Shown in pieces: positions 16,189 through 29,730 of a stretch of 63,714 bases of DNA; the first letter of the stretch is position 1, and every line of letters begins with the position of its first letter. The stretch is from positions 1-63,714 of the IMG/VR virus record IMGVR_UViG_3300030117_005059. One strand, 5' to 3'. The stretch is from a virus. The notes beneath the pieces were generated by a model, which saw nothing but the letters and a program-made list of their open reading frames with translations, ran no database searches and was not told the origin of the DNA. Made by a program: the position numbers and the translations under genes.

Positions 16189-17008
16189 CTTTCTTGTACT
16201 CATTAGCAAGTTTTTGTATTTTTAAAACTGTCTTTAGATCATCTTGAGAAAACTCTGACATGCTAAAGTTCTCAATAATTCTTAGAACACTCTTTGTGTT
16301 TTTAACCATCTGGTCGTCACTTTTTACATCTTCCATCACCAGTGAATTCTTTACCTCACTATGCAACCGGGCTAGTTCAGAATTTAAATAAACTCTAAAA
16401 TCAACACCACCATCCCTGATTGATAGAATGTGTCGATTCAATAATCCTTTTTGCTCAGGCAGTAAGTCTGAGTATTGAGAATTGTATTTTTTGGTGAAGC
16501 TCTTTATAACCAAATCATCAATTGGCTTAAGTTCAGACTCTTCTCTATCCTCATCCTTTTGAGTCAAATTTTCTAACACTGTTCTTTCCATCAACACCTT
16601 CTTCTTCACTGGTGTTTGGTCACTAAAAATTTGAGATATTGTAGCTAATGCTCTATAGTTTGGAACAAACGCAGAAAACACATCGTTACCGATTTCGTGG
16701 TTGATACGCCTAATCATTGCGCTTTGCTCTACAAAGAGTTGCTTTTGATTTATATTCCCATGTTCCACCTTGGTCTGGTAAACTAACTTCTCAGCAGTAT
16801 ACCCATCAAGGTTATCAGCCTCACACAAAGCCTTATAGCAATCAAGCTCTTTTCTTAGAGCCTTTGTCTTTGCAAACGATTCTTTTAGAATTGATCTAAT
16901 AGACGAAGCTCTTTTATAGTCTTTTGCCAGCACAGACTTAGTTAACTCACGAACCAGAGCTTCAAAAATAAAACCAGTGTTTCTTTTCTTATTGTGCTTG
17001 GTCTTCAT
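16178..17008 (-). CDS. Conserved protein between portal and protease, unknown
   Basis: A 276-residue, helix-rich, charged protein. The N-terminus (MKTKHNKKRNTGFIFEALV) has a basic start followed by an amphipathic helix, and the rest is coiled-coil-like with no catalytic motif. GGAGG lies six bases before ATG. The gene overlaps the portal gene by 20 bases and is therefore almost certainly co-translated with it. A prohead-core or assembly role is suggested only by position. Confidence 0.62.
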   Translation of the reverse strand: MKTKHNKKRNTGFIFEALVRELTKSVLAKDYKRASSIRSILKESFAKTKALRKELDCYKALCEADNLDGYTAEKLVYQTKVEHGNINQKQLFVEQSAMIRRINHEIGNDVFSAFVPNYRALATISQIFSDQTPVKKKVLMERTVLENLTQKDEDREESELKPIDDLVIKSFTKKYNSQYSDLLPEQKGLLNRHILSIRDGGVDFRVYLNSELARLHSEVKNSLVMEDVKSDDQMVKNTKSVLRIIENFSMSEFSQDDLKTVLKIQKLANEYKKDGD

Positions 17009-18917
17009 TCTTAGCCTCCAACTGACTGATCAAATTCTTAATTTGATTCTTGGTCTCGAATAAAAGAGTTTCATCCTTTTCGTACATCTCAGTCACCCCA
17101 ACTGCTAACTTATTTATATCCTGTGCCCCTTTAAATAGGTTCCTAGTTGCGCTTGAGGCAGTTTGTTGTCCAGCTTGTGCAGCATAACTTCTACGCCTAG
17201 GTCCCATACCCTTTCTGCTGTCCATTGTCTCGGGAGTATAAAACTTCCCTTTAGCCCCTGGTGTGAGGTATGCCTGATCTCTCATACCGGGCGCTGCCAA
17301 TAGTGGACTTTCATCTCCTGCCGGCTCCTCGGCGGCGGCTTCCTCACCACCTCCTTCTTCACCTCCTAAACCTAAGTCCTCACCACCTAAGTCCTCTCCG
17401 CCAGCTTCTTCTCCACCAGCAGGTGCAGCAGCGGCGGCTGCTGCGGTAGCTGCCTCACCTGCCGCTGTGGCAGCGGATTCAATCACAGCGTCAAGCTTAG
17501 AGTCGTGATATCTTTCTTCAATGATTCTATCAATCTCTTGCTCATCAAGTTTGAAGATGTTTTTATATACCCATCGCTTTGAGAAGAACCCTTCTGTTGC
17601 GGCACCAGCGATGTCAAATCTAGTTCTCATGTGCTCCAACTCTTGAAGTTCAGCAATCTTAGATGGATTGTTTAGTGACAATTTGAAAGACAAAAGATCA
17701 TCACCTCTATACCCTAGTGTGTATAGGTGAACAACCGCCATCTTATGAAGCTCTGCGATAATAACTCTTTGCAGTCTTTGAATGGTTCTAGCAAATCGAA
17801 TATCTTTTTGCGCCAAAGTTGCTTTGTCTTCCATAGCATCTGACTGTGCCAAATAAGCCTTTGGAATCTTAAGTGCTGAAAACAACTTGTCCCTAAGATA
17901 CTGGACGTCTTCAATAGCACTGGTAAATTGTCCACCAGCTAAAGTTTCAACCCTTGATGAGTTGCCGGCTCTAACAGGAATATAATAATCCTCATCAATG
18001 CTCATCGCATTGTAACGAAGATCCACCCTACCAGTATCAGCATCAACGATTTGGTTTCGCTTCATTTGAGTTCGCACTTGCTCAATGTATTGCTCGACTT
18101 CTTGCGGCGGGATGTTGCCCACGTCAATGTAAAAAACACGACGCTCTGGGGAACGCACCACCCGGTAAGCCATCATGGCATCTTCAATTAGAGTAAGCTG
18201 TCTCCAGATTCTTCTTGCTGGCTCTAATACTGACGTTCCATACGGGGTATATAATTCATTTCCCAGGACCCTAAAGTGTGCAATCTGCCAGTTCTCGAAG
18301 GTAACTCCCGAAGGCGAGTTTTGTCCCCCGCTCCAAAAGTATTGAATGTAATTTGGGTTGGTCGGGTCTGTGCCCTCGACTCTTTCGCACTCTCTTAGCG
18401 GCAGCGGCACCACGTTTGTAATACCAAGTTCTTCATCAATGTCAAGATATAAAAAATAATCTCCGTATTTACAAGTTGACCGAGCCCAGCCAAATAAGTT
18501 AAAGTCAATGTTCAGCACACTATACAACAAAACGTTTATGATGTGCTTAATCTCTTGGTTTTGACAATCAACCCTAACGATTGGGGAGATCTCTGAAGAA
18601 GTTGTAATCTCATCGGCGTACACATCTAACGATGACGCAATCTCTGGCATATATTCCATTTGATCAAAGTCAGCATATCGATACTCACGATTCTGCTCAG
18701 ACAGTTGTTTGCTTTGCAGAGGTTCAAATATATTATAATATTCTTTTTTCTTGAACTCTTTGCCCGTGCTAGTAGTAAAGGTGTAGTTCTTGATACTAGT
18801 TGATTTTAGGCGCTTAACCTGTTGCTTATTGTAGTTGACAATAGGACCACTGAATAGTCTTGTCAGCCTCTTAAACAGGGTAGCTTGTTTGTTTCTTGGG
18901 TTACTGTTGTCTGCCAT
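16989..18917 (-). CDS. 20: Portal protein (T4 gp20-like)
   Basis: A 642-residue protein. Residues 60-470 carry the gp20-like portal core: EYRYADFDQMEYMPEIASSLD, then GDYFLYLDID, then APSPERRVFYIDVGN-like sequence (VRSPERRVFYIDVGNIPPQE) and LFSALKIPKAYLAQ. The portal forms the dodecameric vertex that nucleates the prohead and docks the terminase. Residues of about 480-536 form an Ala/Gly/Glu low-complexity insertion, and the C-terminus is coiled-coil. It lies three bases after the terminase stop and overlaps the next gene. Confidence 0.95.
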   Translation of the reverse strand: MADNSNPRNKQATLFKRLTRLFSGPIVNYNKQQVKRLKSTSIKNYTFTTSTGKEFKKKEYYNIFEPLQSKQLSEQNREYRYADFDQMEYMPEIASSLDVYADEITTSSEISPIVRVDCQNQEIKHIINVLLYSVLNIDFNLFGWARSTCKYGDYFLYLDIDEELGITNVVPLPLRECERVEGTDPTNPNYIQYFWSGGQNSPSGVTFENWQIAHFRVLGNELYTPYGTSVLEPARRIWRQLTLIEDAMMAYRVVRSPERRVFYIDVGNIPPQEVEQYIEQVRTQMKRNQIVDADTGRVDLRYNAMSIDEDYYIPVRAGNSSRVETLAGGQFTSAIEDVQYLRDKLFSALKIPKAYLAQSDAMEDKATLAQKDIRFARTIQRLQRVIIAELHKMAVVHLYTLGYRGDDLLSFKLSLNNPSKIAELQELEHMRTRFDIAGAATEGFFSKRWVYKNIFKLDEQEIDRIIEERYHDSKLDAVIESAATAAGEAATAAAAAAAPAGGEEAGGEDLGGEDLGLGGEEGGGEEAAAEEPAGDESPLLAAPGMRDQAYLTPGAKGKFYTPETMDSRKGMGPRRRSYAAQAGQQTASSATRNLFKGAQDINKLAVGVTEMYEKDETLLFETKNQIKNLISQLEAKNEDQAQ

Positions 18918-18920
18918 TTC

Positions 18921-20480
18921 CTATCCCTTATAAATCCAAGGTAAGTAATTACCTCTAGGGCTGGGCTGTTTTCTCTTATCCGAATATCCTGCCATACCCT
19001 TAATTCTAGTATCTAGTTTGCTACTGTCAGATCTCCACGCTGTAAACATGGCTTTTCTTTGCTCTACGTCTCTTTGATTAACTGTCAATGCCGTATCCCT
19101 AATCCAACAAGCTATTGCCAAAGCAATAACCAAATCATCATTATAACCTCTCATACCTTGCGGTCGCCCATTGTGCCAAATGAAAGTCTTAATTTCATTA
19201 ACCGTTCGTAAAGAGTTCAATGTAAGTAGTTTATTTCTGACGAACTCTTCAAGTTTTGATATAACAAGAGGTCGAGTTTTCATAGACATTGTAAAACCTG
19301 CTACCCCACCTCTTGCTTCAGCCGTAGATCGATCAACAAATTCGTGCGTCGCTTTAAGACTGTAGTAGATGTTATCATAACCTATCTCTTCTATTTTGTT
19401 TAACACACCATAGTCGTGATTATTTTCAATAACCAGCAGTGCATTGTTGTACTCACTAGCCATGCTAACTAAAAGAGGAGCAAACATATCAGAGGTCACT
19501 TTACCTTGATATTCTGCAACTTGTTCTAAGGTGTCCAGTCTAATAATTTGTGCAACACTAAAGTCACTACCGTCACCTCGTGCAACGTCAGCACATAAAA
19601 GATATTCTGCCCCTTCCTCAACAGGTTTCCAGATCCAATAGTTTCTATCAAAACCGGTTCTGTGTTGTGGCTCAGAACAATTATCTAACAATCTTTTTAT
19701 ATCATCGCCCGATACAACTGTATCACCGGATGCGTTAAAGTTGCATTCTAACTCTTGAGCTATTTCTCGGGCGGACATGTTTCTTGTCTCTTTTTGAAAC
19801 CATTTTTCGTCTCTATCTGGATGCACTGACCAAGGTAACTTAATAGTAAAGAAATCGTTTTTACTCTCAATAGCCTCGTTGTAAGTTTTATGAAACCAGT
19901 TGCCAACCCCATTAGGTGTAGACAGTGCGATACACCGACCACCTGTTGACAGAGTGGGGTAAAGACCAGCCCACAATTCATCCATACCTTCAACAAAAGC
20001 TGCCTCATCCACAACCAAAAGAGACAGCGCCTCCGAACGACCAGCATCACCAGAGGTCGAGGAAGCCTTGACTTGCGACCCATTACTTAACTCAAACGAG
20101 GTTCTATTATTAATGCTGATGTCTGCAATCTTCAGCCAAGGCGGCAAGTGCTTATGAATTGATTTGATCTTCTTAACTAAGTTTGTAGCTGTGCTTAGTT
20201 TTGTTGCAACGACTAAAACGTTCTTTTCTCGCTGAAACAACATTAGCCAACAAACATAAGCGGCAACCGTTGTTGAGATACCTAGCTGCCTAGCTTTTAA
20301 GATGACACTAAATCTATGTTTTGTAAAATCATTTAGTGCCTGTTTCTGAAAATCATATAGATCAAAAGGTATCAAGCCCCTCATGGGCTCAGAAATTCTT
20401 GCGTAGGTATTAGTAAAGTAAACAGGGTCTCGTCCACAGCGGACGATCTCTTGCATTATCTCCTTTTTTGTAAGAGACAT
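18921..20480 (-). CDS. 17: Terminase large subunit (T4 gp17-like)
   Basis: A 519-residue DNA-packaging motor. The ATPase domain has a Walker A-like KARQLGIST at 62-70 and a Walker B LLVVDEAA with D158 and E159. The RNase H-like nuclease domain has ADVARGDGSDF with D298, IENN near 351 and YNDD near 446-449 as likely metal ligands. ATP hydrolysis drives DNA into the prohead through the portal, and the nuclease cuts concatemers. It starts as TAAATG on the stop of the preceding gene. Confidence 0.95.
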   Translation of the reverse strand: MSLTKKEIMQEIVRCGRDPVYFTNTYARISEPMRGLIPFDLYDFQKQALNDFTKHRFSVILKARQLGISTTVAAYVCWLMLFQREKNVLVVATKLSTATNLVKKIKSIHKHLPPWLKIADISINNRTSFELSNGSQVKASSTSGDAGRSEALSLLVVDEAAFVEGMDELWAGLYPTLSTGGRCIALSTPNGVGNWFHKTYNEAIESKNDFFTIKLPWSVHPDRDEKWFQKETRNMSAREIAQELECNFNASGDTVVSGDDIKRLLDNCSEPQHRTGFDRNYWIWKPVEEGAEYLLCADVARGDGSDFSVAQIIRLDTLEQVAEYQGKVTSDMFAPLLVSMASEYNNALLVIENNHDYGVLNKIEEIGYDNIYYSLKATHEFVDRSTAEARGGVAGFTMSMKTRPLVISKLEEFVRNKLLTLNSLRTVNEIKTFIWHNGRPQGMRGYNDDLVIALAIACWIRDTALTVNQRDVEQRKAMFTAWRSDSSKLDTRIKGMAGYSDKRKQPSPRGNYLPWIYKG

Positions 20481-21035
20481 TTACGCTTCTGGCGTATCAG
20501 GATTCTTCTTCGATGTGTCGTTTGATGGTCTCTTATCAGATGAAAGCTCCAAGAACTTCTTGAAATTGTCATCAAGCCTGTCTTTATCTGATCTTTGACC
20601 GATAGGATCGACTCCCTCTACGCCTCCAATCTTGTATGCTTTCTGTGCCTGAATCCAAGTTCTAACACGGGAAATACTTTGTGCATCAACTCTAGCCTCA
20701 TCGATAGGCGACAAAGTTACAGATCCGTTACCAAGTCGTCTATATTCTTTTTTAAGATACTTTAGAATATCTGCAAAGCGTGCTTCAACTTCATTAACAA
20801 GTTTGTTGGGTGGGTGCATATCTTTCATACTCATCTCTGAGTGATAAGAAACAACCATTTGATCTGCGGCAAATCTAATTTTGAATCCATCAAGTGCTGC
20901 CTTATCATAGATCCCTCTGCCACTTTCTCGCTTTAGACCTAGTTCCAACGGATCACCGTTCTCATCTAGAGCACCATCATATGCGTTTGCTGCTGCTTGA
21001 GCCAGACCTTTTACAACATCATTAATATTAGCCAT
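20481..21035 (-). CDS. Conserved protein upstream of terminase, unknown
   Basis: A 184-residue protein with core segment FKIRFAADQMVVSYHSEMSM and a helical stretch VNEVEARFADILKYLKKEYR; the C-terminus is disordered and basic (KRPSNDTSKKNPDTPEA). It overlaps the 140-residue gene by eight bases. Placement just before the large terminase makes it, with that neighbour, a candidate for a small terminase role, but I see no clear DNA-binding motif. Confidence 0.6.
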   Translation of the reverse strand: MANINDVVKGLAQAAANAYDGALDENGDPLELGLKRESGRGIYDKAALDGFKIRFAADQMVVSYHSEMSMKDMHPPNKLVNEVEARFADILKYLKKEYRRLGNGSVTLSPIDEARVDAQSISRVRTWIQAQKAYKIGGVEGVDPIGQRSDKDRLDDNFKKFLELSSDKRPSNDTSKKNPDTPEA

Positions 21036-21450
21036 GCTGTTTCTTTCTCCTCTTCAATGCGATTTGTACTCGCTCTTCGTTAGGTCGCCATCCCTCTTGC
21101 CATCTTTCTTCACGGTCGTGAACAAATTCATAATAGCAATCTTGACAACACTTAAACCTATTCATATATAGGTCGTCTTTCATAGAAAATGAATATGTTT
21201 TACATACAGGGCAAGTCCTATCGTATTTTCTTTTGCTAGCTTTTTTTGAAATGAGAATACCATCAACATCTACCTTGTCCTGATTGGACTCACTTTTAAT
21301 AAGAGTTGCGCTCTTTAGTTGCTCTAAGTATTCTTTTTCTTTTTGCTCATCCCACTCAGACCTAAAATCTTGTACTGTTTGTTTGCCGTACTTTTTAGCG
21401 ATCGCCTTTTCTACTGATGCGACATATTCCCAGTCAAGTTTTTTGCTCAC
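21028..21450 (-). CDS. Zinc-ribbon protein upstream of terminase
   Basis: A 140-residue protein with a GTG start that overlaps the preceding stop (GTGA). It has a helical, charged N-terminus, then a four-cysteine cluster (CPVC near residue 81, then CCQDC near 102-106), followed by aromatic and basic sequence (EERWQEGWRPNEERVQ). A zinc-binding role is well supported by the cysteine spacing. The function is unknown; packaging accessory and small terminase are both possible given the terminase two genes downstream. Confidence 0.6.
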   Translation of the reverse strand: MSKKLDWEYVASVEKAIAKKYGKQTVQDFRSEWDEQKEKEYLEQLKSATLIKSESNQDKVDVDGILISKKASKRKYDRTCPVCKTYSFSMKDDLYMNRFKCCQDCYYEFVHDREERWQEGWRPNEERVQIALKRRKKQHG

Positions 21451-21827
21451 TGTGGATACACCGCATGTACGATACCAATAGAGACACCAACCCCCACTGT
21501 TAATCCAGTAAGCAAACCAACAACACCTCTATTCCTGTCAAACCAAGAGTTGTTTTTTCTGAGTTGTTGCTCTAACTTAGTTATGGATAATTTGTAGGTC
21601 TCTTGCATCTGGGTGCATACTTTTTTATCCACTTGACACTCAGCCATCTTAGCGTTAGTATCAATCTTTTTCTGGAGCATAGTGCGAAAGTCTTCCTCGC
21701 TCATTAATATGCCAACATAACTACTACCATCTTGCTCAACAACCGCTGGGCGAGGCTTGAACTTTACAACCTCTGCCGCAGCGGCGTTGAACGAAAGTAG
21801 TAATGCGAGTGCAACCGTTATCTTCAT
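21447..21827 (-). CDS. Secreted protein with C-terminal membrane segment
   Basis: A 126-residue protein. Residues 1-18 form a Sec-type signal peptide ending AAAAEV, with no lipobox cysteine. A periplasmic region with a short coiled coil (about 65-92) precedes a C-terminal Gly-rich hydrophobic helix (about 103-120). The topology resembles spanin-like or envelope proteins of lysis cassettes, and a holin-like and spanin-like pair lies just upstream. No strong ribosome binding site is seen. The lysis role is tentative. Confidence 0.55.
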   Translation of the reverse strand: MKITVALALLLSFNAAAAEVVKFKPRPAVVEQDGSSYVGILMSEEDFRTMLQKKIDTNAKMAECQVDKKVCTQMQETYKLSITKLEQQLRKNNSWFDRNRGVVGLLTGLTVGVGVSIGIVHAVYPQ

Positions 21828-21828
21828 T

Positions 21829-22971
21829 TTACTTTAGAAACTTTTTCAAGCCCTCAATGCGTTTGCCGGGTCGCTTGAGACCGCTAACCAAAGTGTAAGT
21901 TACAAGCTTGTCTCGCTTGGCATCCTCATAAATACCACGATGCACGATAGCTCCACCGGTCAAAGCTGCCAAAGTATCAAATCCAAACTCGATGTTATCC
22001 ATTAGACCCACAGTCTCCTCAAAGATAACTTCGCCACCCACCACAATACAAGCGGCACCTGATGCAGTGGTTAGATCAAAACCCTCCGCAAGAAGAGTCT
22101 TCTCTAGGTTCTTTTTAAGAGCAGTCGAAACAGCAGTTTCATTCTCTGGTTCTTTAACTGTGGTAACACCCATAATCATACAGCCTGGTTGTTTCATAAT
22201 GCTATCGTAATCTGTAGCGTCGAAGGTCGTATACTCAGAGTCCTTGTTTGCCAAGACGTTGAAGACATGAAATAAACCAGCGACTGTGTTGTTAATGGTC
22301 TTCCAAAATTTCTTAACCGTAAGTTTAGGGTAAAGCTTTTTAATCTTTTCGTTGTCCACCATAATGAGTGGAGCAATCTGTCCCTTTTCTGCGAGCCCGC
22401 AAAGTTGAGTGATTCGATTGTGGGCATTTTTTGCAACGGTTGGTGATGCCGACTCGCCAGCCGTTGGTAGTGATGCGACTACACCAACTCGCTCATCTAC
22501 GTTCTCAACACCAATGTAAGTAAAGTACTTCTTTGCCACCTTGATGAGAGTGTTAACCGTTCCGCCACCAGAACCACCAGAAACACCAAGACAGATCAAG
22601 ATACGATCAACGTTGTTCCCGAAGATCTCACGGAACTTATTGAATACTTCTTGCTCCTTACGTTCGATAGCAGCTTCGGCTTTAGCTTGGTCTTTGCCAG
22701 CACCCTGCTCGCCATGCTCATCAACTAAGAACTTTTGGTTTTCTGGTAAGTCAAGCCCATTCAGGTCTGACTTCGCTGTGTTTACGGCAACAGTCTTGGT
22801 GTAACCCATATCATAAAATGCTTTTGCCATACGTCCGCCGCCTTGACCAGCGCCAACAATTGCGTATACCAAAGCACCACCTGATTTGTCCTCAACAGAC
22901 TCTTCCTCTTCATTTAGTTCGGGATCATAATCCTCGATATCTAATTCAGGAATATCTAAATCAATAGTCAT
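21829..22971 (-). CDS. FtsZ/tubulin-superfamily GTPase
   Basis: A 380-residue protein with the FtsZ/tubulin layout. IVGAGQGGGRMA (38-49) and AVNT (62-65) match the first nucleotide-binding loops; GVSGGSGGGT (129-138) is a variant of the tubulin signature GGGTGTG; VDNEKI (205-210) matches the FtsZ NDxL segment; and FDATDYDSIM (250-259) matches the T7 catalytic loop, keeping both aspartates (D251, D254) but with Thr where FtsZ has Asn. An acidic extension (1-30) and a basic tail (LKRPGKRIEGLKKFLK) are phage-specific. GGAG is seven bases before ATG. It could build a filament that positions phage parts, or interfere with host FtsZ. Confidence 0.87.
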   Translation of the reverse strand: MTIDLDIPELDIEDYDPELNEEEESVEDKSGGALVYAIVGAGQGGGRMAKAFYDMGYTKTVAVNTAKSDLNGLDLPENQKFLVDEHGEQGAGKDQAKAEAAIERKEQEVFNKFREIFGNNVDRILICLGVSGGSGGGTVNTLIKVAKKYFTYIGVENVDERVGVVASLPTAGESASPTVAKNAHNRITQLCGLAEKGQIAPLIMVDNEKIKKLYPKLTVKKFWKTINNTVAGLFHVFNVLANKDSEYTTFDATDYDSIMKQPGCMIMGVTTVKEPENETAVSTALKKNLEKTLLAEGFDLTTASGAACIVVGGEVIFEETVGLMDNIEFGFDTLAALTGGAIVHRGIYEDAKRDKLVTYTLVSGLKRPGKRIEGLKKFLK

Positions 22972-23198
22972 TTGGTTCTCCTTTTTTTTGGGGCTGCTTT
23001 CGCCCTTTTTGTTTTTGTTTTTTTTTGCGTAGGCTTAATTGCTTCGGCTTTTGCCACTGCTTCTTGCGCCCTCATTTGATTTTGTTTTATCAGTTCAATA
23101 GCTCTAGCTTTTTTGGCTTCTTCGATCTCAGCCGCTAATTGCTTTTGTTGCTCCAATGCAATCGCAACTCTTTGCTTTCTTCTTTTCGGTGCTGGCAT
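22968..23198 (-). CDS. Small basic protein coupled to the FtsZ-like gene
   Basis: A 76-residue protein, about half Lys, Arg and Ala, with a central helical segment (EQQKQLAAEIEEAKKARAIE) and very basic ends (TKTKRAKAAPKKRRTK). GGAG lies seven bases before ATG. Its stop overlaps the FtsZ-like start (ATGA), so the two are translationally coupled. A nucleic-acid or polymer-tail binding role is inferred from charge and coupling; no known fold is evident. Confidence 0.62.
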   Translation of the reverse strand: MPAPKRRKQRVAIALEQQKQLAAEIEEAKKARAIELIKQNQMRAQEAVAKAEAIKPTQKKTKTKRAKAAPKKRRTK

Positions 23199-23210: not shown

Positions 23211-23525
23211 TCAAATATCTAACTCTTCGTGAAGTCTAATAAGTGCGTTTAGTCTGTCTTCTCGATTGTCTATCTTCTTTGTATCTTGCAGACGACTCTC
23301 GAATACTTTCTTAACCGCACCTATCTTATCCTTCTCTAAGTCAGCCCTTAACTTACTTTCTTTAGCATGGATCTTTACTTGTGTTAAGACATCATCAACA
23401 ACAGTTTCATTTTTTTCTGCTGGCTTAACCAAGCGATACATATAATAGGCAACTGCAACAAGCAGCAAAGCTGCCGCTACAGTTGACCAAAAATATTGCT
23501 TTACCTTAAGTTTAAGCCAGTTCAT
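23211..23525 (-). CDS. Spanin-like membrane-anchored coiled coil
   Basis: A 104-residue protein with a single N-terminal membrane segment (about 11-32, FWSTVAAALLLVAVAYYMYR). A long charged coiled-coil-like region follows, ending HEELDI. This is the topology of inner-membrane spanins (Rz type), which join the inner and outer membranes at the last step of lysis. It overlaps the holin-like gene by four bases. No cognate outer-membrane lipoprotein is clearly visible. Confidence 0.55.
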   Translation of the reverse strand: MNWLKLKVKQYFWSTVAAALLLVAVAYYMYRLVKPAEKNETVVDDVLTQVKIHAKESKLRADLEKDKIGAVKKVFESRLQDTKKIDNREDRLNALIRLHEELDI

Positions 23526-23707
23526 TTACCGTGCTTCCACTTGGATGCAATATCTGCTGCGCCTTGAAGCCCAATGTAAGCTAGCGAAACAGCAACCCAC
23601 TGATCACCAGTAAGCATACCAAGTGGTAAAAGCACAGTAGAGGTGCCCCACACAATTAACTTTCTTGACGCCCATTTGCCGAGCAGTTTGTCAATTTTAC
23701 CTGCCAT
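23522..23707 (-). CDS. Holin-like small membrane protein
   Basis: A 61-residue protein with two hydrophobic segments (about 17-32 and 37-55) around a short hydrophilic turn (GDQW), and charged ends (basic N-terminus, SKWKHGK at the C-terminus). Small two-helix proteins of this kind are typical phage holins that pierce the inner membrane. The gene starts in a TAATG overlap and is directly followed by the spanin-like gene. No endolysin gene is found in the window. Confidence 0.62.
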   Translation of the reverse strand: MAGKIDKLLGKWASRKLIVWGTSTVLLPLGMLTGDQWVAVSLAYIGLQGAADIASKWKHGK

Positions 23708-25105: not shown

Positions 25106-25114
25106 TAAATAGTA
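25106..25114 (-). promoter_or_regulatory. Late-type promoter motif TACTATTTA
   Basis: The minus strand reads TACTATTTA then TTTTAG, 26 bases before the ATG at 25080, with GGGGAGG in between. It is one mismatch from the nine-mer elsewhere. It marks the boundary between replication genes and late genes. Confidence 0.6.
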
Positions 25115-26220: not shown

Positions 26221-26594
26221 TCTATCTCTTTCAAATATTTCTGCGCTCTTGCTAAAGCCCTAATACTATCCTTGAATAACCCAAGTCCACGATTACATTG
26301 ATGACACAAAAATCCTCTGAACTTATTAGTGACGTGGCAATGGTCTAATACCCAAACACCAGCCCAACCTCCTGTGCCTTCTAACTCCTTTTCATCTCTC
26401 TGGCATATAGGGCAAATGTGATCTGGCGGGGCTGTGCCATGTTTTTCTTTTAGCAACCTACGCTGGCGAGACAGTTCATTGTTACACTTTTTGCACTCTG
26501 GTCGGTATATGTTCTTTCCGCCGTGGGCACGACTAAAACAAGAAAGATCTAAAGATTGTCCACATTTACTACACTTCTTCTTATTGGTTGACAT
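26217..26594 (-). CDS. 49: Recombination endonuclease VII (T4 gp49-like)
   Basis: A protein of 125 residues from the ATG at 26594, seven bases after GGGG, overlapping the upstream gene by 14 bases. An N-terminal zinc ribbon (CSKCGQSLDLSCF, then RPECKKCN) precedes the His-Me motif WVLDHCHVTNKFRGFLCHQC, with the catalytic His in LDHCH and zinc ligands in CPIC and CHQC. Endonuclease VII cuts Holliday junctions and branches before packaging. The family identity is clear. Confidence 0.88.
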   Translation of the reverse strand: MSTNKKKCSKCGQSLDLSCFSRAHGGKNIYRPECKKCNNELSRQRRLLKEKHGTAPPDHICPICQRDEKELEGTGGWAGVWVLDHCHVTNKFRGFLCHQCNRGLGLFKDSIRALARAQKYLKEIE

Positions 26595-29500
26595 AAGCAT
26601 ACCCCGATTGACGCTCAATGTCAATAGTCATATCGGCAATATCTTTGAGACTATCCAAGTGAGTAATCAAAAGCACAGTCTTGTAGTAGCCCTTAATCAT
26701 TTCCATCACTCGCATAAAGCCTTCAAGGTTTTCGGCGTCCAACGCTGTGCCTGGCTCATCCATAATCATGATGTCTGATTTTGGTAGGGTTGACACATTG
26801 GTTAGGGCGATACGGATGGCAATTGCTGCTAGCGTTTTCTCTGCTCCAGAAGCCATCTCTAAAGGTCGTGCTTCGTACTTTGGATGCTTGATGAAGATGT
26901 CTAGCTTATTCTTTTCTGCCTCAAAGAAAATATCAAAATCGGTGACGTTGGCAAGCACCGTACTGACCTCTTCATTGATAAGAGGTAGCATCCGCTTCAC
27001 AACATCATAACTGATACCATTAGGATGAGTACACCGCATAAACAAATCATAGGCAGCGTACTCTGTCCGCAGGTCTTCCAATTCTTGCTGCTTCTCTTTG
27101 ATGTTCGCAATTTGAGTTTCAATACCACCGTGTGATTTTACTAGGTCAAGCACCTTGGTTTCACAGATGGCAATATCGCTTTCCATCTTGATGGCTTTTT
27201 CCTTGAGGTCATCCTGTTCTTTGATAAGACCTTCTCGATTCTCAATTGCCTCCTTGTTCGTTTCATACAAATCAATCTTGGTTCTGATGTTTGTCATTTC
27301 GCTGGTGAGAAGATGGATTTTATTTTTTATCTTTGCAAAAGATAGGTCAAGGTTGGTTGCTTCAGTACAAAGATCAGCATGTTCTTTGTCTCTGCTGATG
27401 TACAGTTTCCGCTCTGCTTCCAGAGTTTTTACGTCCATATCTTCCAGCTTAGCTGTCAATTGATTGTGGCGGCGCTTTAAATTAGTAAGCGTCTTCTTTA
27501 CCTCTTGAAGAAGCTCCTTAGCTTCATAAGCATCTTTGATATATTTGCGGAGACCGCAGTCAGGACCGCAAGGTACTTCGTCAAGAGCATCGAGCTTCTT
27601 TTTGTAAACTGCTTGATTATTTTCTTCAAGCTTAATCTGGTTCTCAATGTCTCTAAGGTCTTTTTGTAAAACCTCACATCGATTAATTTGACTTGCAAGT
27701 GTATCAACGTCTGTGGCATCTAAAAGCTTTTTTAGGACTTTGGCTTGCGCCAAAACATCTTTCTTTTGCTTTTTGGCTTGCGTTGATTTGGTATTGAGGT
27801 CTGCTGATTCTTGCTCTGCTGTCGCAAGTCTTGCTGTCTCTTTTCTAATATTAATAAGTTCAACAGGGGCAGATGCGAAAAGTCCATCAATCTCTCTCAC
27901 TCGTTCGGAAATGGTTTCTAACTGTGTAGTTAGTTTAGCACATTTCCTTTCTTGTGTTTCCCTTGCTTTTTCATTATCGGTCAGTTGTCCGAGGAGTTGC
28001 GTAATATCTTCATCAAAATTATTATCTTCCAACTTTTTCAGGAGGGCACGGGTCTCAATACTATCGTTCTTGGATAGTTTGAACTTCTTCTCAAACTGGT
28101 CAAGGTCCAAAAACTTGGCAAGGATTTCCTTGCGCTTGGTTGAGCCCTCGTTGATGAAAGTCATTGCACCCATCTGGCTGGACATGCTGGTCAACAGGAA
28201 GTCGTCAATGCTACCAAAGATTTTACGGATAGCTTTGTCGGTGCCGTTACGGTCCAGCGAGTTGAGGCTGGTTTCCTCATCAGTGGCTGGATCAATCACA
28301 ACAAATTCCACATCAGTCTTAGCTTCCTCTGTTTCCTCCCCATGGAGTTTTCGAGTATATTTCTCTGACTTCCTCTCAATAATATAGTTCTTGCCAGCGA
28401 TGTCAATTTCAACTCGACCATATCCAGACGGTTTGTTCTGATTAATAATATTAAGATTCTTACGACTGTTCTTGCTGATTGAGTTATACACTGTGTAGAG
28501 CATACTGTCAACGACAGAACTCTTACCTGAATAGTTTTTACCGAAGATGCCAACGACGCCATTAAGTTTATCAAAGTTGACAGCATTACCCTCTCCATAG
28601 TTGAAGAGGTTGTCCCATTCCATCTTCTTCAGAGACCATTCTACGTTTCGCAGTCCTGCCTCGTCGCCATTAACATGTGCGTCATAACGTGAGTTAAGCT
28701 GAAATACTTTTTCTAGTGTCTTATCATCGGGTTCGTATTCTTTTAGATACTCTCGAATAAGGCGCTCTTGAACTGCTTGATCCCGCAGGTTCTCTGTGTT
28801 GCCAAGGTCGTCAACGTTTACGCTATCCCGTTTGAGACCAGCCTTGTTGACGAACGATAGGCTCTCGGGCTTGAAGCGGGTTTTGACAATATCCATCACA
28901 CGGCGGATTTTGTCTAGCGAGACTTTGTGGTGTGTCACCACACGCAGTCGGGCACCCTCTGGGATATCCAGCTTGCGTGGGATGTTCCCCTTCGCTGTCA
29001 TCTCAATTGTCATAAAGGGTTTAATATTTTCAACGAGACAATGCTTAACTTCATAGTCAGTCTTGCTCTTGATGTCCCAGATTAAAAAGCCCTTGTCGTT
29101 TGTCTCACCATGGTTTTGCTGGATAGTAGAACCACAATAACGAATGGTGCCACTCTCGTTGAGGACTTGGTTAGTCTTGTGGATATCACCCAACATAGCG
29201 TAGTCAAACTTATCAAACACTGAGATGTCATGATCGCCGTGGTCCATCACCCAACCGAGGTCTGTTTGACTATTATTAATTGCTCCGTGATAAAGAGCGA
29301 TATTGATTGCATTAGGATCAGACGGATCTTCCCAATTAGTCTCATCAAAGATTGACAAAACGTTTAGGGTCAAGTCGTCTTCCAACTGAACCTCACCTGA
29401 GTACTTGTGTAGGATTAGGCTTGGGTGATTGAGTGCTTCCACAATCGGAGTGATAGCATCTTGGCGAGCAGCGTTCCGTAGGTTGCCGTCATGGTTCCCA

Positions 29501-29730
29501 AGAATAATATGGGTCTCGGCGATGTCAGCCAAGTTCTTTAGGAAGTCTGTAGCTAACTCAAAGTACTCTGGCGAGAGTTGTGTTTTTGTGTGAGCCAAGT
29601 CGCCAGTATGGACGATGTAGTCTACATTTTCTTTTCTCAGGGTTTCATATATATGCTCAAATGCCTTACGGTACTCGTAATGGTATTTCAGATTTTTGAT
29701 ATGGGTGTCCCCAAAGTGTGCTATTCTCAT
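26581..29730 (-). CDS. Fused Mre11-Rad50 exonuclease (T4 gp47 + gp46 in one protein)
   Basis: A 1049-residue fusion. Residues 1-250 are an SbcD/Mre11 phosphoesterase: FGDTH, HTGDLA, LGNHDGN, LYHGAI and LGDIHKTN hold the metal ligands. Residues 370-1049 are an SbcC/Rad50 ATPase: GKNYSGKSS Walker A near 400, a coiled coil broken by a Cys hook (C721 and C725 in CGPDC), signature SGAEKT near 961 and Walker B IMIMDEP near 988. T4 makes these as two proteins forming the recombination/repair nuclease. The hook is CxxxC, not the usual CxxC. GAGG lies five bases before ATG. Confidence 0.93.
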   Translation of the reverse strand: MRIAHFGDTHIKNLKYHYEYRKAFEHIYETLRKENVDYIVHTGDLAHTKTQLSPEYFELATDFLKNLADIAETHIILGNHDGNLRNAARQDAITPIVEALNHPSLILHKYSGEVQLEDDLTLNVLSIFDETNWEDPSDPNAINIALYHGAINNSQTDLGWVMDHGDHDISVFDKFDYAMLGDIHKTNQVLNESGTIRYCGSTIQQNHGETNDKGFLIWDIKSKTDYEVKHCLVENIKPFMTIEMTAKGNIPRKLDIPEGARLRVVTHHKVSLDKIRRVMDIVKTRFKPESLSFVNKAGLKRDSVNVDDLGNTENLRDQAVQERLIREYLKEYEPDDKTLEKVFQLNSRYDAHVNGDEAGLRNVEWSLKKMEWDNLFNYGEGNAVNFDKLNGVVGIFGKNYSGKSSVVDSMLYTVYNSISKNSRKNLNIINQNKPSGYGRVEIDIAGKNYIIERKSEKYTRKLHGEETEEAKTDVEFVVIDPATDEETSLNSLDRNGTDKAIRKIFGSIDDFLLTSMSSQMGAMTFINEGSTKRKEILAKFLDLDQFEKKFKLSKNDSIETRALLKKLEDNNFDEDITQLLGQLTDNEKARETQERKCAKLTTQLETISERVREIDGLFASAPVELINIRKETARLATAEQESADLNTKSTQAKKQKKDVLAQAKVLKKLLDATDVDTLASQINRCEVLQKDLRDIENQIKLEENNQAVYKKKLDALDEVPCGPDCGLRKYIKDAYEAKELLQEVKKTLTNLKRRHNQLTAKLEDMDVKTLEAERKLYISRDKEHADLCTEATNLDLSFAKIKNKIHLLTSEMTNIRTKIDLYETNKEAIENREGLIKEQDDLKEKAIKMESDIAICETKVLDLVKSHGGIETQIANIKEKQQELEDLRTEYAAYDLFMRCTHPNGISYDVVKRMLPLINEEVSTVLANVTDFDIFFEAEKNKLDIFIKHPKYEARPLEMASGAEKTLAAIAIRIALTNVSTLPKSDIMIMDEPGTALDAENLEGFMRVMEMIKGYYKTVLLITHLDSLKDIADMTIDIERQSGYAYVNQ

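Follow-up and report, generated by a model that had tools for sequence, protein, structure and literature searches.

Tubulin/FtsZ fold and GTPase site of phage Z

The viral record IMGVR_UViG_3300030117_005059 (positions 1 to 63,714; this whole 63,714-nucleotide stretch is the window) carries on its minus strand a gene for a tubulin/FtsZ-type protein, here termed phage Z (Table 1). The original prediction had placed an FtsZ/tubulin-like GTPase of a T4-like phage at this locus; its coordinates were right, and the minus strand, which it did not state, is added here. Both parts of that prediction were borne out, the GTPase by Pfam, AlphaFold2 and PDB matches, and the phage by T4-type genes for the terminase large subunit (TerL), portal, prohead protease, major head protein and tail sheath, which follow Z on the same strand.

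In Pfam scans, phage Z matched Tubulin (PF00091, 8.2e-9) and TubZ-like_C (PF22453, 2.2e-6), both above the curated cut-offs; no match to FtsZ_C (PF12327) or to the PhuZ C-terminal domain (PF22334) was found, and the PhuZ PHROG phrog_4733 gave only E 0.056. The AlphaFold2 model has a tubulin fold (mean predicted local distance difference test score (pLDDT) 84.3, predicted template modeling score (pTM) 0.86). When the model was analyzed with Foldseek, TubZ ranked first (2xkb, E 4.5e-22; template modeling score (TM) 0.73–0.76; 4ei7, TM 0.76), followed by FtsZ and CetZ (TM 0.70–0.72 to CetZ/archaeal FtsZ-like proteins), and all of the 50 best PDB fold matches belonged to the tubulin/FtsZ family. 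By sequence, the best PDB match was Bacillus cereus TubZ 4ei7 (2.6e-11; 4.3e-13 with the family profile), and the next relatives were CetZ/archaeal FtsZ, B. thuringiensis TubZ and then bacterial FtsZ. The closest viral structure model was UniProt A0A6J5RW92 (E 2.5e-32, TM 0.83, 27% identity). It is near certain that phage Z has the tubulin/FtsZ superfamily fold. The structural comparison proposed in the original prediction gave a confident match to this superfamily, and a non-tubulin Rossmann fold was rejected, since Pfam, predicted structure and PDB matches were all tubulin/FtsZ.

The motifs that had been noticed in the protein are all present at the predicted places: the nucleotide loops, VNTA (residues 63–66) included, the GVSGGSGGGT signature, VDNEKI (residues 205–210) and the T7 loop. 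In the T7 loop YTTFDATDYDSIM, D251 and D254 align with the catalytic pair of FtsZ/TubZ. Across 70 full-length near copies these loops vary little or not at all, and the GTPase site is complete.

Near copies of phage Z were found on ∼94 viral contigs, with 85–99% identity among the 80 kept. When the window was compared with two relatives (on contigs of 179 kb and 191 kb), the values per site were 0.60–0.74 for synonymous (pS) and 0.04–0.06 for nonsynonymous differences (pN); synonymous sites are near saturation within the window's clade (clade A). In the same genome pairs pN was 0.12–0.19 for TerL and 0.26–0.29 for the head protein. At 91% identity, vs. 71–73% for TerL and 59–61% for the head protein, phage Z is better conserved than any other protein found in the window and ranks with RecA, DnaB, ribonucleotide reductase and DNA polymerase III alpha of these genomes. 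We show that phage Z is under strong purifying selection. Strong constraint over the whole core is as expected for a lattice-forming core protein. A chance open reading frame (ORF) was rejected on the basis of the domain matches, motif retention in relatives and purifying selection.

Table 1. Features of the phage Z locus in the window (positions are those of the window; aa, amino acids).
Feature	Position	Strand	Remarks
Tubulin/FtsZ-fold GTPase (phage Z)	21829..22971	minus	380 aa, ATG start
First nucleotide-binding loop IVGAGQGGGRMA	22825..22860	minus	residues 38–49; family signature GQGGGR
T4 (tubulin signature) loop GVSGGSGGGT	22558..22587	minus	residues 129–138
T7 loop YTTFDATDYDSIMK	22192..22233	minus	residues 247–260; predicted catalytic aspartates D251 and D254
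Acidic N-terminal tail, predicted disordered	22867..22971	minus	residues 1–35; 14 D/E vs. 1 K/R; motif IPxLxIEDY
Late-promoter-like motif ACTATTTA	25106..25113	minus	upstream of the gene run with Z
Small protein	23522..23707	minus	61 aa; conserved (65–98%); opens the gene run in the clade
Predicted membrane protein	23211..23525	minus	104 aa; one N-terminal hydrophobic stretch; conserved upstream neighbor in the clade
Small basic protein	22968..23198	minus	76 aa, 24 K/R; 4-nt overlap of its stop with the Z start
Protein with hydrophobic stretches at both termini	21447..21827	minus	126 aa; conserved downstream neighbor
Protein with CxxC...CxxC stretch	21028..21450	minus	140 aa; conserved neighbor
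Probable small terminase	20481..21035	minus	184 aa; directly before TerL; by position only (T4 gp16-gp17 order)
T4-type terminase large subunit (TerL)	18921..20480	minus	phrog_2 7.7e-51, PF03237 9.1e-13
T4-type portal protein	16989..18917	minus	phrog_213 1.7e-74

A phage tubulin lineage with its tail at the N-terminus

A profile-guided search yielded a second clade (clade B, 66–68% identity to the window protein), and a DNA pattern yielded a third (clade C, 34%). A DNA pattern for GQGGGRIA matched 57 ORFs in IMG/VR, on contigs of up to 230 kb; 51 of them matched the family profile, and one of these (L218) behaves more like TubZ. Further lineages among the pattern matches showed about 70%, 50–54% and 36–40% identity, and by DNA-pattern search the whole family spans 93% down to about 33% identity in about nine lineages. 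PF22453 was above cut-off in clades A and B and in lineage F, and below cut-off or absent in some other lineages. A tblastn search of phage records (50,697 for the TerL search) with the Z protein gave no match at E 0.01, and no phage-Z-related locus was found in GTDB genomes.

Phage Z proteins formed one clade in the trees (support 94/94 with clades A–C only, 95/91 and 95/99), apart from PhuZ (separate at 100/100) and FtsZ (99/100 or better). Canonical TubZ and CetZ entered these trees only as fragments read from PDB alignments, and only one CetZ fragment could be placed, at no supported position. Phage Z was sister to TubZ in one tree (94/88), a placement that was unsupported in another, and one intermediate tree left the deep forks among Z lineages, TubZ-like proteins and FtsZ open. 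A clade of Z plus PhuZ was not strictly rejected (approximately unbiased (AU) test, p 0.06). Judged from sequence, phage Z is a phage-specific tubulin lineage distinct from TubZ, PhuZ and FtsZ. Among relatives in cultured phages, Bacillus phage G gp138 is the clearest, but it fell outside the Z clade and has a C-terminal tail and a TubR-like gene upstream.

The chimallin profile phrog_4795 was not found in 30 records, many of them partial, and the phiKZ positive control gave 1.8e-232; this argues that Z is not a PhuZ/nucleus system. PhuZ membership was rejected on this result together with the phrog_4733 score, the lack of PF22334 and the tree separation.

In one lineage (L261, 6116-8734, minus strand; also L202 and L265), a 345-aa insert lies in the tubulin gene between YN and TFD, directly before the T7 loop. 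It has intein-like ends (C1, a TPDH block, and TGN followed by T) and a LAGLIDADG-like stretch. The tubulin genes of relatives are continuous at this site, and Pfam gave the insert no name.

The TerL tree grouped clade A with phages without Z, excluding clade B (100/98; AU p 0.005 against A plus B), which implies that Z was transferred between lineages or lost in some. Phage Z is useful to phages, but it is not universal. If clades A and B share Z by horizontal transfer rather than by slow vertical descent, its conservation would say less about its weight. On the TerL tree we regard this history as quite possible, at somewhat below an even chance. However, Z already evolves ∼5 times more slowly than TerL within clade A, the A–B distances fit roughly the same ratio, and the near saturation of synonymous sites within clade A also argues against it.

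Residues 1–25 of phage Z are predicted to be disordered (pLDDT <50), and the N-terminal extension measures 28–190 residues across the family. The tail of the window protein contains VDIPTLDIEDY (family form [ILV]P[D/E/T]L). A motif [I/L/V]-P-[D/E/T..]-[L/F/I..] was present in the tails of 37 of 40 family members vs. 15% of shuffled tails, a comparison that is only indicative because the motif was picked after the tails were inspected. Its likeness to the C-terminal peptide of FtsZ (E. coli YLDIPAFLRKQAD) is loose and may serve only as a lead.

The original prediction had also raised interference with host FtsZ. Phage Z might block or redirect host division, by co-assembly with FtsZ or by capture of FtsA, ZipA or MinC through its N-tail. 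The motif is conserved in a disordered segment, and other phages hit FtsZ with small proteins (PMC3961180, PMC4944311, PMC11897509). However, the remainder of the motif is oppositely charged, a full catalytic GTPase exceeds the needs of an inhibitor, and ∼20% identity to FtsZ makes co-assembly doubtful; the apparent late operon (see below) is mildly against it. Host FtsZ interference has no direct support, its sole hint being the weak N-tail likeness, and we consider it decidedly improbable.

At the opposite end, the window protein has 16 residues from position 365 on (window protein numbering), the family 8–33 and clade C 34–47. From the same aligned position, PhuZ has 40–46, TubZ-like plasmid proteins 63–86 and FtsZ 51–128 residues. 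The family lacks the C-terminal tail of TubZ, PhuZ and FtsZ; its anatomy combines a GQGGGR first loop with an intact T7 loop, in which the second acid is D or E. The C-tail of TubZ and PhuZ gives the filament its shape, binds partners and is required for normal filaments (PMC5322520, PMC3678025); phage Z should therefore differ in how it assembles and binds partners.

Gene neighborhood, late-promoter-like motif and the phage

The clade A gene order (61-aa protein, 104-aa membrane protein, Z, 126-aa membrane protein, 140-aa protein, the protein in the small-terminase position, TerL, portal) was invariant in ∼80 loci, wherever the contig was long enough. In the window, the ORFs from Z through TerL overlap or abut. 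The 76-aa basic ORF was considered as TubR or as a conserved partner and rejected, being present only in near-identical phages. Of the proposed location between lysis-like and packaging genes, the packaging side stood in the window's clade and its nearest relatives; the lysis-like side did not, the neighbors there being small and partly hydrophobic, with no convincing family match. In clade B, TerL lies 2.5–7 kb downstream of Z in most loci, but not in L101. In clade C, Z is close to a gene that resembles a portal by eye, which PHROGs did not confirm. In distant lineages Z is tens of kb from the portal, and a general link of Z to terminase was dropped. Phage Z is a stand-alone unit, and its link to packaging genes is local to the window's clade and nearest relatives.

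A virion-assembly or packaging accessory (e.g., a scaffold or terminase switch) that uses GTP without forming a cytoskeleton would fit the tight cluster with the small-terminase-position gene, TerL and portal in clade A and, in clade C, the portal-like neighbor. However, this clustering is not general. In tubulins, the active site of one subunit is completed by the T7 loop and H7 region of its neighbor; these parts are among the most conserved in Z, which implies head-to-tail polymers. We regard such an accessory as very doubtful.

A tubR gene directly upstream of Z was not found, the upstream neighbor in the clade being the predicted membrane protein; a tubR may yet exist farther off in the genome. 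In contrast, an ORF of ∼95–115 aa directly precedes the TubZ-like genes of plasmids and gp138 of Bacillus phage G. No tubC iteron array was present within about 5 kb of Z in three genomes. Without a TubR-like neighbor or iterons, a tubZRC partition cassette is not supported. As the driver of a type III (tubZRC-like) partition system, phage Z would retain a phage genome, plasmid-like or pseudolysogenic, while cells divide, as TubZ of phage c-st does (PMC7950403). In favor of this role, TubZ ranks first among the structural and profile matches of Z and is its sister group in one tree, and Z carries the TubZ-like_C domain. Against this stand, besides the missing gene and array, the lack of any partner common across lineages, the absent C-tail (the partner docking site of TubZ), the position of clade-A Z in a terminase run and the empty GTDB search. 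We consider the partition role unlikely; phage Z is neither PhuZ nor a tubZRC partition system.

The octamer ACTATTTA was found upstream of 26 of 394 genes vs. 1 control stretch, and in the window it mostly precedes head and tail genes. In the 2.5 kb upstream of Z, 25 of 42 clade-A loci carry it in the sense orientation and 0 of 42 in the antisense orientation, frequently ∼32 nt ahead of the 61-aa gene. The T4 late promoter TATAAATA showed no enrichment here, whereas ACTATTTA did. These data suggest that Z may be co-expressed late with the packaging genes. Across this phage group (window 1-63714 and relatives L105-L123), AACTATTTA stands as a candidate late-promoter motif, in the role that TATAAATA has in T4.

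The replication set of the phage differs from that of T4: a relative has polymerase III alpha, RecA, DnaB, class II ribonucleotide reductase and a Cpn60-type chaperonin. The closest TerL proteins among the 50,697 phage records are only 41–44% identical and belong to Flavobacterium phage immuto, Microcystis phage Mel-JY01 and an uncultured 484-kb phage. Host searches, by a scan of GTDB for the phage GroEL and with Z itself, found nothing. Judged by the IMG sample numbers, the habitat is probably marine. A 178-kb relative carries a transfer-messenger RNA gene (L122, 4108-4430, minus strand; tag ANDDFQLALAA), which suggests a bacterial host. Genes for a Cpn60-type chaperonin and for SpoVR and DUF444 proteins occur in a 190-kb relative (L108, 7798-9384; L109, 15847-18349). 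The window also encodes a 1049-aa fusion of a calcineurin-like phosphoesterase with an SMC/RecN-type ATPase (26581-29730, minus strand), SbcCD-like in one chain and 87% identical in relatives. In a clade-B phage, ferredoxin-, IscA- and IscU-like genes (iron-sulfur assembly), judged by eye, lie near the tubulin gene (L093, 6809-7769).

Function and comparison with known systems

Our best explanation, which we give about an even chance of being right, is that phage Z would be an active, GTP-hydrolyzing filament tubulin of a phage-specific lineage that, late in infection, positions DNA or capsids without a nucleus. A filament that positions DNA or capsids, which the original prediction had proposed, is also the best functional reading here. 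The nearest characterized relatives, TubZ and PhuZ, are filaments that move DNA and capsids (PMC3678025, PMC4244570, PMC13282480). We infer that Z would be expressed late in infection, together with terminase and portal, and would polymerize with GTP into dynamic (treadmilling or unstable) filaments. Within the cell, these filaments might position phage DNA after its replication, or prohead/packaging complexes, and a large T4-like phage could in this way package efficiently without a phage nucleus. The disordered N-terminal tail may recruit cargo or membrane, taking over the role of the C-tail in TubZ, PhuZ and FtsZ.

Several points weigh against this explanation: (i) the late timing of Z is inferred from the motif only; (ii) the absent C-tail could mean different assembly, or none; (iii) in distant lineages a T4-type portal was seen in 9 of 24 records, mostly 30–120 kb from Z where both were seen; (iv) no neighbor is common to three of the nine lineages; and (v) the three phages with the closest TerL, including immuto and Mel-JY01, have no tubulin above cut-off.

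In a tentative extension, possible but less than probable, phage Z would represent a third widespread class of phage cytoskeleton. It would act in nucleus-less phages (with a T4-type portal where a portal was found), with no TubR or C-tail, and a relocated N-terminal adaptor peptide would dock a phage or host partner, possibly as a mimic of the FtsZ C-peptide, to organize late replication and packaging.

Two groups of phage tubulins, TubZ and PhuZ, have been reviewed and explained mainly via plasmid partition or the phage nucleus (PMC7950403, PMC13282480). Two FtsZ/tubulin versions were reported in jumbo phages (Iyer et al., 2021; PMC7824862) and PhuZ homologues in huge phages (Al-Shayeb et al., 2020; PMC7162821). 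No paper describing the phage Z lineage, or study of A0A6J5RW92, was found in the open-access literature. That protein, of an uncultured Caudovirales phage, has the same predicted fold as Z and is named "FtsZ Cell division GTPase", an automatic-looking annotation. A conserved tubulin lineage in many phages without signs of a nucleus or partition would make filament organization broader among phages, and it suggests that internal filaments are built even by phages that have no phage nucleus.

With TubZ, known from Bacillus plasmids and in phage forms (c-st, Bacillus phage G gp138), Z shares its best PDB match, TubZ-like_C and an intact catalytic T7 loop. Unlike TubZ, it falls in a separate clade, without a TubR neighbor, iterons or C-tail, and has an N-terminal adaptor-like tail, the GQGGGR loop and a T4-like context. 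PhuZ, of nucleus-forming chimallin phages, is like Z a phage tubulin with a tubulin fold and a presumed DNA/capsid filament. Z, however, has no PF22334 match and no extended C-tail, is distant in trees and has a late-type motif upstream, whereas PhuZ is among the early phiKZ transcripts (PMC13282480). FtsZ has FtsZ_C and a C-terminal peptide, whereas Z shows no PF12327 match and no C-tail. CetZ and archaeal FtsZ-like proteins share with Z the GQxGG first loop and an AVNTAKxDL stretch, but they are cellular and archaeal, and Z is phage-encoded. Set beside these systems, phage Z offers a tubulin with an adaptor-like tail at the opposite end, and it would open a direct test of what a phage cytoskeleton does without a nucleus.
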